Assembly: GCF_000001735.4 (NCBI RefSeq)
Contig: NC_003071.7
Span: forward strand, 17,211,443 to 17,275,442
Length of the DNA stretch: 64,000 nt
Reading direction: 5' to 3'
DNA from: Arabidopsis thaliana
Taxonomy: Eukaryota > Streptophyta > Magnoliopsida > Brassicales > Brassicaceae
Shown here: positions 58,873-63,910 of the stretch, in pieces
Position numbering within the stretch: the stretch's first letter is position 1
How the letters are laid out: each line of letters begins with the position of its first letter
The notes under the pieces: generated by a model
Seen by the model: only the letters and a program-made list of their open reading frames with translations
The model's database searches: none
Told to the model about the DNA's origin: nothing
Position numbers and translations under genes: made by a program

Positions 58873-59760
58873 AGAGATATGTTGTTAACTAGTCAGAGAA
58901 GTCAGAGCAGTTCGGTCTGTGTATCTTTAGCCACCACTGTACCTTTGTAATTTTTAGTATTTGCTTCCACAACAAAAATCTGTAACTTTGTATCTTTATG
59001 ATGTTCATTCTCAAACTTGCTATCACAAAAATGTAAAAACATAAAAAAAAAAAAATGTAAACTTTGAAGAGAAATGAGAACTAGAGTTTATTTCCTACCT
59101 TTGTCTGAGCAATTCTATTCAATTACCAAAAGTCTTATCCTGCATCGGTGATGGCTACCGGAAGCAGTTGCATCAATGTTGCTTTGGCTTTACGACCAAA
59201 AGAAAGCCATCGCAGAGCTCAAATATAGAAGGTTTTCACGTCTCAGCTACTGAAAATGATCAGTTCTCTAAAGACTAGAACTCTACAAGGTTGGTGGCTA
59301 AGAAAAGGATGTCGATTACATCATAATGCTAATACACGCAAAAGGTCAGGAGTGTCGAACATGTTTTAACTTGCAAACATTGCCGACGACACCAAGTTCA
59401 TTTCGAGCTCGGAATTGAGATACCGAAGACATGTCCAAATTTAAACCGGACTTAGTAAATTCCCCATCAAAAATGGGGAAAATGAGACTTTTCTTTCGTT
59501 TGATGCGAAAACTCTCGTCTTGACTCTTGAAGCTTTGTTTTTTTGACTCCACAAGTCGTCGATTTGACATTCGAACAAATGATTAGTCAGACGATCAGAA
59601 ACGCTCCAAAACGCAGCGCTTTGGCTAGAACAGAGCTTTAAGACACCTATGTTAATACGAAAATACCCTCTGATAAACTTATTTATACACTCGACGTTTC
59701 GTTTTTTTTTCCAGTTTTCTGAAAAGTAAATTATTTGAAATCCCGCTCTGAATTATTACA
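58873..59760. other. Spacer between ERD15 and the next gene
   Basis: ERD15 3' UTR to about 59 kb, then sequence without convincing coding. The last 100 bp are the leader of the frame at 59761. Confidence 0.4.
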
Positions 59761-59997
59761 ATGGCGCCAAAGAGAGCATCGCCGATGCAGTCTTCTCTGT
59801 ACTCTATCGGTAAGAACTCGGAAAGCCCTTGATTTTATTCAGAAAACTCCGATCAATCAAATGAATCTTCGTGTGTTTTGATTCGATTTCTCCAGGTGAT
59901 TACGAGGTTGCAGTGGATGGTAAGAATTTCACCTGTGAATCCGGACCCAAAAGCATTCAAATCAAATTTCCCAGAAACTACACAGTCAAAATCTCAG
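59761..59997 (+). CDS. Unrecognised two-exon fragment
   Basis: Exon 59761-59809 (MAPKRASPMQSSLYSI) and exon 59896-59997 (GDYEVAVDGKNFTCESGPKS, then IQIKFPRNYTVKIS) join by a good GT-AG intron with a strong donor GTAAGA. The start context TTACAATGGCG is good. A further donor (TCAG|GTTCG) at 59998 implies more exons, but none that clearly belong are found before the K-box-like gene starting at 60350. It is either a short gene whose later exons I cannot see, a 5' remnant of a broken gene, or alternative first exons of the downstream gene. The protein family is unknown to me. Confidence 0.4.
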
Positions 59998-60224
59998 GTT
60001 CGTCTAGAATTTGGGTTCTTGCGGTTCTGTTTTTTTTCCACTCTAATTTGGTTGTTAGTCATTTTGGGCTCTATGATTTGATTATCTAATTCAATTTCAT
60101 CTATTGATGTTATGCGGCTACTAGCAAAATGTGTAACAAACTCAATGTCCATAATTTTTCTTTTTGTGGTCAAACAACTCAATTTCCCTAAATTACTTTA
60201 GGAAATTTTCCATAATATTGGACC

Positions 60225-60349: not shown

Positions 60350-62623
60350 ATGGGGAGAGAGGGCGATCAGATGAAGAGGAAGCGAAGAGATCTAACGAAC
60401 AAGACGAGAGGGCCCTGCAATTTCTGCGAATTCTCCAGCAGCAGGTACTTGGCTCACAGATGGCAAACAAGGGTTCGATTTTCTAGGGTTTTCATTGTTG
60501 ATTTAGGTCTTTGAAGTAATTTAGGATATGGGAACCATCACAAAATCTGCTTATTAGGTTTATTGATTAGCTATTTACTCGGCTTAGTTGGATCTCGGAA
60601 TCTGAATCTGAATCTGAGGATATGATTGAATCAGACAATAAACTTAAACCTAAACCCCTTGGCCTTTTTCCAGATATGGATGCAGCTCTGAAGATAAGCT
60701 GCAGGAGCAAGACAATGAAGCAGTGGTATGTAATTACTTATGTACTCATATATCTATCTCTTTGTATGTTATACCTGTGTTTTTGCTTACATTCAACTTC
60801 TCTCCTTGCAGCTGCGGAAAGAAGTCGAGAGATTACGGCTTTTGATCAAGTATGCCTGCGTGCGTTTCCCACTTTCTTGTTCTGCATATTCATTTTGGTT
60901 GATGAGTTTTCTTTCATGATTCCAGGAGAATGACTGGGAAGGAAGATATTGTCAGCTTCACCGAGCTGCTAGCTCTTCAAAGTCACCTTATGGATGTCCG
61001 ATCCATTGTGCTGGAGCAAAAGGTGAAATAGGGGGAAATATTACTTGACTTTTTTTTTTTGTTTCCGTGTCGTTATTATCAAGAATTTTCTTTAACTATT
61101 GGCTATTGCAGAAGGAGGTAGAGCTGGAAGAAGCTGAAAGGCCGCACAAACAGGTAAAGTATTCTAATTCTTAATTTAGCTGTCTTCTTTTTTTTTGCCC
61201 TGTATCCAAATTTTTTTTGTTGAGGAAAGTCAGTTTTACCCTTTCCAGTCTAAAATCTCTCACAAGGCCATTGCTTTTGCCTCTCCTTTTTTTCTTCTTA
61301 AAGTTCCTTGTTGACCTTGCAAGTTCTTAAGCTTTCTCACCTTTTACTTCTTTCTTTCTTTTTTCTGTCTTCTCGGGTAATTACGTATCTGACATATATC
61401 ACAATCCCCTTCGATTTTGCAGAAGAAGGAAGCAGAGCATGATGCTGACGGTATGAGGAGAGGGGTTTTGGTTCCTTGCAAATTCTCTGCCAGCAGGTAA
61501 TCTCTCTGCTAAAGAATTGAGTTATTTTTTGTTGGGTTTGGTCACAACAATTTGTGTGTCTGTGCAAATGGGAACCATTTTTTTTCTAGGGTTTCTTTCT
61601 GTCGAAGTGAGTGTATATGAAACCTGCCCTTTTTTTTTTTTTTTATGAGCTATATAAACCAAAATCAGTTGTAGTTTCGTCCTTATTAGCTACTATTGGA
61701 CTCAACAGTGGGAGTTGAATCCTTCATCTCTCAGAATCTGAGGGAGATCACTTGTTTTTTTTTGTTCTTCTTTTCAAAGTTGTAGCTGTCTTGGTGCAGC
61801 ATATCACGTTATGATGTCTTGCTTTTTGATCATCGAAACCAATTGTGTAAAAGGAAAGGCTGACTTGACTTGTTCTGCATATATATAATACAGCTTGGGA
61901 GAAAGACAGGAAGATCCAAATGGTGAAGCACCACTGGTGCGCGTATATTCTCTTCTCTTCCTTATCTCTTTTCTTTCCTCAGACTGTGTCTTTAAAATCC
62001 TCATTTTCTTGCAGCTGCAAATGCAGAGGGAATTCGAGCAACGCAGCTCTGAATCCTTGCAGAGCGAGTTCGACAAATTATGGCTTTTTAACGAGTAATA
62101 ACTCAATACCATTTCCCACTTCTTGCTCTGCAGAAGTCTCTGTTTCTTTTTTTCTTTTCTTTCATTTTGGGTTTTCTTTCATCTCACAGGAGAATGAATG
62201 GTAGAGAGCTCGAGGGTATGACTTCCTTCGACCTGTCCATACTTCACATTCAGATATTACGAGCTCTACGGGCTTTGATTGACCAAAAGTTGGGACCAAG
62301 ACAAGAACATAGGGCATGGCAGCGCGGAGAGGTAAAAATTTATCTATCAGTGTATATTATATGTTTTTAGTAACTAGTGTATCTGAATCGTTTCTTCTAT
62401 TCACACATTTTCTTAGCTTGTTTGCCACACCGACAAGGAATCAGTCTCTGGGTTAGCTGAGCCCGGGAGATGTTCGTCGGATAATGACAAGGATGCTGAC
62501 TCTTCCTTGCAATGTAGACTTCTTCTCGTTTCAAGAAAGCTCAGAAGATTCCATAATTCTTATCAGCGGAAGAGCATGCCGGAGACCAGGTCGGTCTGCC
62601 AGAGTCGAGTGACTTCCGATTGA
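60350..62623 (+). CDS. MADS-less, K-box-type protein with duplicated five-exon unit
   Basis: My model has ten exons: 60350-60444, 60674-60725, 60812-60849, 60926-61022, 61112-61153, 61423-61496, 61894-61936, 62015-62094, 62190-62331 and 62417-62623. All introns are GT-AG, phases are consistent, and it gives 289 residues. It starts MGREGDQMKRKRRDLTNKTR. Two K-box-like parts follow: LRKEVERLRLLIKRMTGKED with FTELLALQSHLMDVRSIVLE, and LQMQREFEQRSSESLQSEFD with LEGMTSFDLSILHIQILRAL. CNFCEFSSSR and VPCKFSASS resemble the end of a MADS domain (FSSSR), but the DNA-binding part is absent. K-boxes pair MADS proteins, so it may be a dimerisation-only partner. I recall an agamous-like annotation in this position. 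Confidence 0.7.
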
Positions 62624-63589: not shown

Positions 63590-63910
63590 ACATTATATAT
63601 ATATATATCTTATTATATAATGTACGGTTTTAAAAGTTACTAACTCACCAAATTATGACACGTGACAGTTTTATCAATTTAAGATTTTGACATGTGTTAG
63701 AGTTTTTTTTTTTACTTTTTTCCTTAAATAAAATAAAGGAAACTAAAAAAAAAACATATTTACAATTATTAATTTATATAGTTAATTTTTAATTTTCTTA
63801 ACTAAAATAGAAAACTAACAATAAGATATAAATTTTAAGATATAAATTTATTTAAATATTTATTGATAATATTTAAAATAATATGGAAAACTAACAATAA
63901 GATGGAAAAC

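Follow-up and report, generated by a model that had tools for sequence, protein, structure and literature searches.

A tandemly duplicated K-box gene without a MADS domain in Arabidopsis thaliana: probable descent from an AGL18-type gene and a possible decoy role

A 64,000-nucleotide stretch of chromosome 2 of Arabidopsis thaliana (positions 17211443-17275442; hereafter, the window) contains, at 60350-62623 of its plus strand, a ten-exon gene model referred to here as gene A, which we take from its map position to be AT2G41440. Judging by its sequence, gene A is supported as a K-box-type gene of MADS descent that arose by internal duplication of genomic DNA. The K-box of plant MADS proteins forms coiled-coil dimers and tetramers, and the best explanation overall, to which we give an even chance, is that the product of gene A would serve as a K-box-only decoy of AGL15/AGL18-type floral repressors. 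Two relatives, genes B and C, lie nearby (Table 1). A unit is one K-box block, and C1 and C2 are the first and second unit pairs of gene C. The exon models of B, C, and AGL18 (presumably AT3G57390) are our own predictions reconstructed from genomic sequence; in the model of C, one acceptor was shifted by 3 nt to the next AG, with the frame kept. Genome searches covered 119.7 Mb.

The ten exons of the gene A model join into one open frame of 289 codons with GT-AG borders in all nine introns, and the outgoing exon phases, in line with the preliminary description, are 2, 0, 2, 0, 0 and then 2, 0, 2, 0. The motifs that had been assigned to corresponding exons are in place as well: exons 4 and 9 open with RMTGKED and RMNGREL once the split codon is passed, while exons 1 and 6 close with CEFSSSR and CKFSASS. 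The claimed five-to-five correspondence holds for exons 1-4 versus 6-9 but fails for exons 5 and 10. These are not simple counterparts: exon 9 (142 nt, i.e., 100 + 42) seems to include the following 42-nt exon, apparently fused to it with loss of the intron, and the DNA-level match of exon 10 is to the last exons of AGL18 and not to exon 5. As had been noticed, introns 3 and 8 share TTTCCCACTT and TCTGCA, the latter in register; the window bears exactly two copies of TTTCCCACTT, with a chance mean of 0.21 and at least two copies in only 1 of 100 shuffles. Exon 3 with intron 3 aligns to exon 8 with intron 8 at 73% over 64 columns (E 0.003), and a second aligned stretch spans the intron 3/exon 4 junction (83% over 35, E 6.5e-5). 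Such intron similarity between the halves indicates that genomic DNA was copied. The expected similarity of the two halves is thus found at the DNA level and also at the protein level, where the Smith-Waterman score is 69 against 29.3±5.2 after shuffling (0 of 1000 as high). Units 1 and 2 are likewise similar within B and within C2 (0 of 1000 shuffles as high in each), and the similarity of the two units of C1 is not significant (58 of 1000).

The designation of A as a K-box gene lacking a MADS domain stands in its negative part, since the Pfam MADS family (SRF-TF) has no match at E≤10, the listing threshold, in A, B, or C; the control AGL18 yields 92.3 bits for SRF-TF and 64.7 bits for the K-box. 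The positive part depends on the relatives. Gene C reaches 45.8 bits for the Pfam K-box in four stretches, which is above the curated cut-off of 30 bits, gene B reaches 26.7 bits, below it, and the assignment of A, sub-threshold in itself (19 bits), turns firm only by way of its relative C. Moreover, 12 of the 15 hydrophobic K positions of AGL18 are hydrophobic in at least six of eight units, versus 1 of 32 other positions, although common descent alone would account for part of this retention. A PDB sequence search with gene A returned no matches at E≤10.

Among 33 listed K-box places, AGL18 is the top-scoring one for seven of nine unit sequences; one other place outscores it for C2 unit 1 and two do so for B unit 2. 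In the genome search with gene C it is the only place outside chromosome 2 matched at E≤10. Smith-Waterman comparison with AGL18 gives z scores of 13.2 and 12.7 for units 1 and 2 of A, with 0 of 1000 shuffles as high in each case. Gene A and AGL18 have in common the phases 2, 0, 2, 0, 0, a K exon of similar length (97 and 100 nt), and 42-nt exons, in agreement with an MIKC-type gene. Exon 2 of both carries RYG...NEAV, and KELEGM of the AGL18 K-box is RELEGM in exon 9 of A. Exon 1 of A keeps the MGR start, a KRRRDLT-like middle, and the CEFSSSR end of the MADS exon, the remainder of which is gone; in B, the first 18 nt of exon 1 are identical to those of AGL18, and a piece resembling RRNGLIKKAKEL is retained. 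Like A, both B and C preserve remnants of the MADS exon and have the exon phases of AGL18. Relative to AGL18, 72 nt of the MADS exon are missing in B and 87 nt in A, each figure a multiple of three. Exon 10 resembles the C-terminal exons of AGL18 at the DNA level (0 of 500 shuffles as high), the protein-level resemblance to the AGL18 C terminus being weak (76 of 1000 as high). The LxLxL repression (EAR) motif, LQLGL in AGL18, has become LQCRL both in A and in C0, a stray copy of exon 10, and no longer fits the pattern.

The genomic surroundings point in the same direction. On chromosome 3, AGL18 is flanked on one side by a glycosyltransferase gene and on the other by a gene with many exons, which we take to be the villin gene VLN3. 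The best genomic partner of the glycosyltransferase gene is at 17.361 Mb of chromosome 2, with relic D of the A/B/C family about 2.6 kb away. The many-exon neighbour, searched for in the window and ten chromosome 2 stretches, matches chromosome 2 from 17.411 Mb, with relic E about 2.5 kb away. Since paired flanking genes have relics beside them, the family lies in a segment paired with that of AGL18. The simplest reading is that the family represents the otherwise lost duplicate of AGL18 from a whole-genome duplication, presumably the alpha event. The synonymous divergence (dS) of the glycosyltransferase pair, 1.58, is similar in magnitude to that of AGL18 with A unit 1 (1.62) and with B unit 1 (1.05), the values against AGL18 being 0.90 for C2 unit 1 and 2.78 for C1 unit 1; these values are near saturation, so they do not date the duplication.

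A K-region DNA tree (9 rows, 141 columns, rooted with AGL18) unites all second units with support of 99/98. Within it, A unit 1 joins C1 unit 1 (99/97), A unit 2 joins C1 unit 2 (86/83), and B unit 2 joins C2 unit 2 (92/90). The first units group weakly (77/82), and the tree does not resolve whether B unit 1 pairs with C2 unit 1. It follows from the unit tree that the internal duplication predates the split of A and B. It is old and common to the whole family, and the order of events was probably the internal duplication, then the separation of A and B, and then the formation of C as an inverted A-B copy with fusion.

The reading frames have been under selection, albeit weakly, as follows from frame-keeping changes in the exons and from the ratio of non-synonymous to synonymous divergence (dN/dS) by the NG86 method. 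In four pairings among A, B, and C, which share data, exon-length differences are multiples of three in 6/6, 5/5, 7/7, and 6/6 cases, and intron-length differences in only 2/7, 2/6, 3/8, and 2/6; terminal exons are partly fixed by the chosen start and stop, and exon 10 of A was left out. The NG86 dN/dS is 0.44 (0.26-0.71) for A-C1, where none of 300 bootstraps reaches 1 or more; C1-C2 gives 0.59 (0.40-0.89), with 3 of 300 doing so, and B-C2 gives 0.66 (0.43-0.98), with 6 of 300. By unit, the ratio is 0.28 between the first units of A and C1 and 0.57 between their second units, so that constraint seems stronger on unit 1 than on unit 2.

The course of events that would give rise to gene A can be outlined as follows. 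The ancestor would be a MIKC MADS-box gene of the AGL18 type, in all likelihood the copy of AGL18 that arose on chromosome 2 through the last whole-genome duplication. Its MADS box would have been lost by deletions that retained the frame, after which the remaining gene would have been duplicated in tandem, and transcriptional read-through would have turned the 5′ leader of the second copy into coding sequence. Exon 6 of A is indeed read in frame across an apparent former start codon (DG-M-RRG). Such an origin (AGL18-type descent, frame-keeping loss of the MADS box, tandem duplication, and read-through) appears highly probable. The predicted product has two weakly preserved K-box dimerisation segments, a degraded EAR motif, and no recognisable DNA-binding domain. 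It would bind the K-boxes of AGL18/AGL15-like partners and keep these partners off DNA, and, if acting on AGL15/AGL18-type floral repressors, it would favour flowering. Having K-boxes without a DNA-binding domain, A is best read as a putative decoy for partners of the AGL15/AGL18 type. There is also a bolder version, which we hold to be unlikely, where a lineage-specific poly-K family with two or four K-boxes, joined in one chain as a MADS-less AGL18 duplicate was repeatedly fused by read-through, would supply multivalent decoys or scaffolds against AGL15/AGL18 and would contribute to flowering-time variation.

To judge by the map, the names AT2G41440, AT2G41445, and AT2G41470 in print presumably refer, taken together, to genes A, B, and C; gene B, downstream of A, is probably the likelier bearer of the name AT2G41445. 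AGL18 has been reported to be redundant with AGL15 and to interact with it, and the double mutant to flower early in short days (PMC8069471). A burden test published in 2026 found, in its linear model, that flowering time at 10 °C was associated with loss of function of AT2G41445 (P 6e-30), AT2G41440 (P 7e-29), and AT2G41470 (P 2e-9) (PMC13089410). AT2G41440 has already been named an agamous-like MADS-box protein in print and has one of the lowest fold changes listed for accessions from Chernobyl (PMC9697804); absence of the gene from these accessions would explain this just as well. It is also listed among nitrate-responsive genes in roots (PMC3906980).

A number of results weigh against the decoy reading, at the level of domains, descent, selection, and phenotype. 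Gene A by itself stays under the Pfam K-box cut-off, and the two K-box-like halves of the preliminary description are only partly recovered by the profile: unit 2 alone gives a sub-threshold 12.3 bits (E 0.19), and unit 1 alone has no K-box match at E≤10, only an unrelated sub-threshold family. The final part of the K-box looks short, with a proline there in unit 2, which makes tetramer formation doubtful. AGL18 is absent from the 14 scored candidates of the genome search with gene A, though tblastn of A on the fetched AGL18 locus does match it (E 0.001). For A-B, the NG86 dN/dS is 0.74 (0.50-1.14), and 23 of 300 bootstraps reach 1 or more. The YN00 method gives 0.78 for A-C1, 0.98 for B-C2, and 0.80 for A-B, higher than NG86 for whole-gene pairs, with a wide spread among unit pairs, up to 1.25 for the second units of A and C1. 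Because YN00 is higher and variable, purifying selection is argued here from NG86 and frame conservation. Raw A-C1 identity is not higher in exons than in introns (0.78 vs. 0.79), the intron value being inflated, since shuffled introns already reach 0.70. Broken copies exist in the family. Finally, after kinship correction (EMMAX), only FRIGIDA stood out and the three signals were gone, and the authors warn of stratification and possibly spurious signals, with no effect direction given in the section concerned (PMC13089410).

Some of these results are what would be expected of a decaying cluster of degenerate, functionless MADS copies with chance expression, which we find doubtful. It would suit the rapid protein change (A-B identity of 46%), YN00 values near 1 along with an exon identity not above that of introns, the dead copies D and E and the stray last exon C0, and loss-of-function alleles common enough in the population for testing. 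However, all compared exon-length changes in A, B, and C preserve the frame and most intron changes do not, none of the 300 bootstraps reaches 1 for A-C1, and 34 exon joins in the three genes (9 + 8 + 17) leave each with one open frame, one of them after the 3-nt acceptor shift. At the same time, gene A may have become dispensable only recently. Two further alternatives seem very improbable. If units 1 and 2 were adjacent genes transcribed separately, the second from its own ATG in exon 6, this would fit the in-frame ATG at the old start (DGM) kept in the second units of A and B, and the two printed names, AT2G41440 and AT2G41445, for genes of this area. However, the start codon of the second unit is absent in C1 and C2, and all four second units have similar, open codons 5′ of its position. 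The inter-unit introns of C1 (83 nt) and B (125 nt) are too short for a terminator plus a promoter, though those of A (269 nt) and C2 (394 nt) are longer; with no second-unit ATG and an 83-nt intron, read-through is needed at least in C1. The other alternative is that the K-box units bind a non-MADS partner, e.g., an SCF adaptor, which would give the protein a new role. The K-box of A is far diverged from the family profile, and AT2G41440 is listed as a prey of ASK13 (PMC6054272), but this is a single prey entry of a yeast screen, and the units still show the hydrophobic pattern of their MADS parent. Weighed against all three, the decoy of AGL15/AGL18-type repressors is still the explanation that we prefer.

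Table 1. Exons of gene A, shared intron motifs, and related features on chromosome 2 (positions of the window unless stated otherwise)
Feature	Position	Strand	Remarks
Exon 1	60350..60444	+	MADS-box exon remnant, phase 2 out; aligned with exon 1 of AGL18 and B
Exon 2	60674..60725	+	I-region, RYG...NEAV like AGL18 exon 2; phase 0 out
Exon 3	60812..60849	+	38 nt; unit 1 first K-box helix
TTTCCCACTT in intron 3	60865..60874	+	common to intron 8
Exon 4	60926..61022	+	unit 1 second K-box exon; 97 nt (AGL18 100 nt); RMTGKED
Exon 5	61112..61153	+	42 nt, size of AGL18 exons 5 and 6
Exon 6	61423..61496	+	unit 2 start; shorter MADS-exon remnant, end CKFSASS
Exon 7	61894..61936	+	unit 2 I-region
Exon 8	62015..62094	+	unit 2 first K-box helix; 80 nt in all four second units
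TTTCCCACTT in intron 8	62112..62121	+	second copy
Exon 9	62190..62331	+	unit 2 second K-box exon; RMNGRELEGM
Exon 10	62417..62623	+	C-terminal exon; DNA match to AGL18 exons 7-8
Gene B	chr2 17275570-17277330	+	9 exons, 234 aa, two units; 1.5 kb downstream of A
Gene C	chr2 17293749-17289952	-	18 exons, 414 aa, four fused units
C1/C2 exon join of gene C	L026 6900-7071	-	C-terminal exon into MADS-remnant exon
Relic D	chr2 17.365 Mb		broken family copy
Relic E	chr2 17.408 Mb		broken family copy
F-box frame	L026 9728-9188, chr2 ~17.2947 Mb	-	Pfam F-box 43.8 bits

In gene C, exon 10 of the first pair continues directly into exon 1 (the MADS remnant) of the second pair in one frame. The stray exon C0 is a copy of exon 10 with 96% of nucleotides and 91% of residues in common and an intact frame; it sits just downstream of a 91-codon F-box frame, and a fusion of this frame with the K-gene tail is possible. 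Three pieces of relic D match C1 at 83-89% identity. It was considered as a marker of the ancestral position, being beside the glycosyltransferase gene, but with such identity it is more likely a later copy. The more divergent relic E, near the next paired gene, is therefore the better witness. Fragments of a broken second copy of the glycosyltransferase gene are seen just after relic D (L028 5279-5558).

Upstream of A, a 651-bp segment (59491..60141, plus strand) is 98% identical to sequence downstream of B (L025 2478-3128), and such a recent segmental copy means that the locus is still rearranging. The window's copy of this segment contains the start of a short frame, MAPKRASPMQSS..., whose 51 residues gave no match near a cut-off in a Pfam search. 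Also, a short repeat (75-76%) on the opposite strand connects 63607-63862 of the window with L027 5075-5255 (~17.300 Mb). The gene at 58.3 kb of the window is, we assume, ERD15.

The family appears to trace the fate of a floral-repressor duplicate in which the DNA-binding domain was lost, the frame stayed under some selection, and the dimerisation module was multiplied. Should its products prove to bind partners of the AGL15/AGL18 type, a transcription factor would have produced a multivalent antagonist of itself, and one multiplex knockout could test the reported, structure-confounded flowering association of three such genes. Neither a fused multi-K architecture nor an AGL18 origin was found in the titles or abstract openings of the open-licence matches listed.

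Among known systems, the closest is the MIKC floral repressor AGL18 itself, which resembles A in exon phases, K-exon sizes, RYG...NEAV, the KELEGM-like motif, the MADS-exon remnant, the DNA of the C-terminal exon, and the paired segments. Unlike AGL18, the family has its MADS box destroyed and LxLxL degraded, and one chain holds two K-box units in A and B and four in C. In the terms of the microprotein concept, A exceeds the size of a one-domain microprotein. Other MIKC genes with a K-box only have been described, e.g., five in rose (PMC9666904), which, like A, have retained the K-box and lost the MADS domain; in the present family, the unit has been duplicated, with the copies fused in frame. 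Finally, MADS-less splice isoforms of FLM and FYF, proposed as negative regulators (PMC7450174), also combine a K-box with the absence of a DNA-binding domain, but gene A is a separate locus with its own history and not a splice form.
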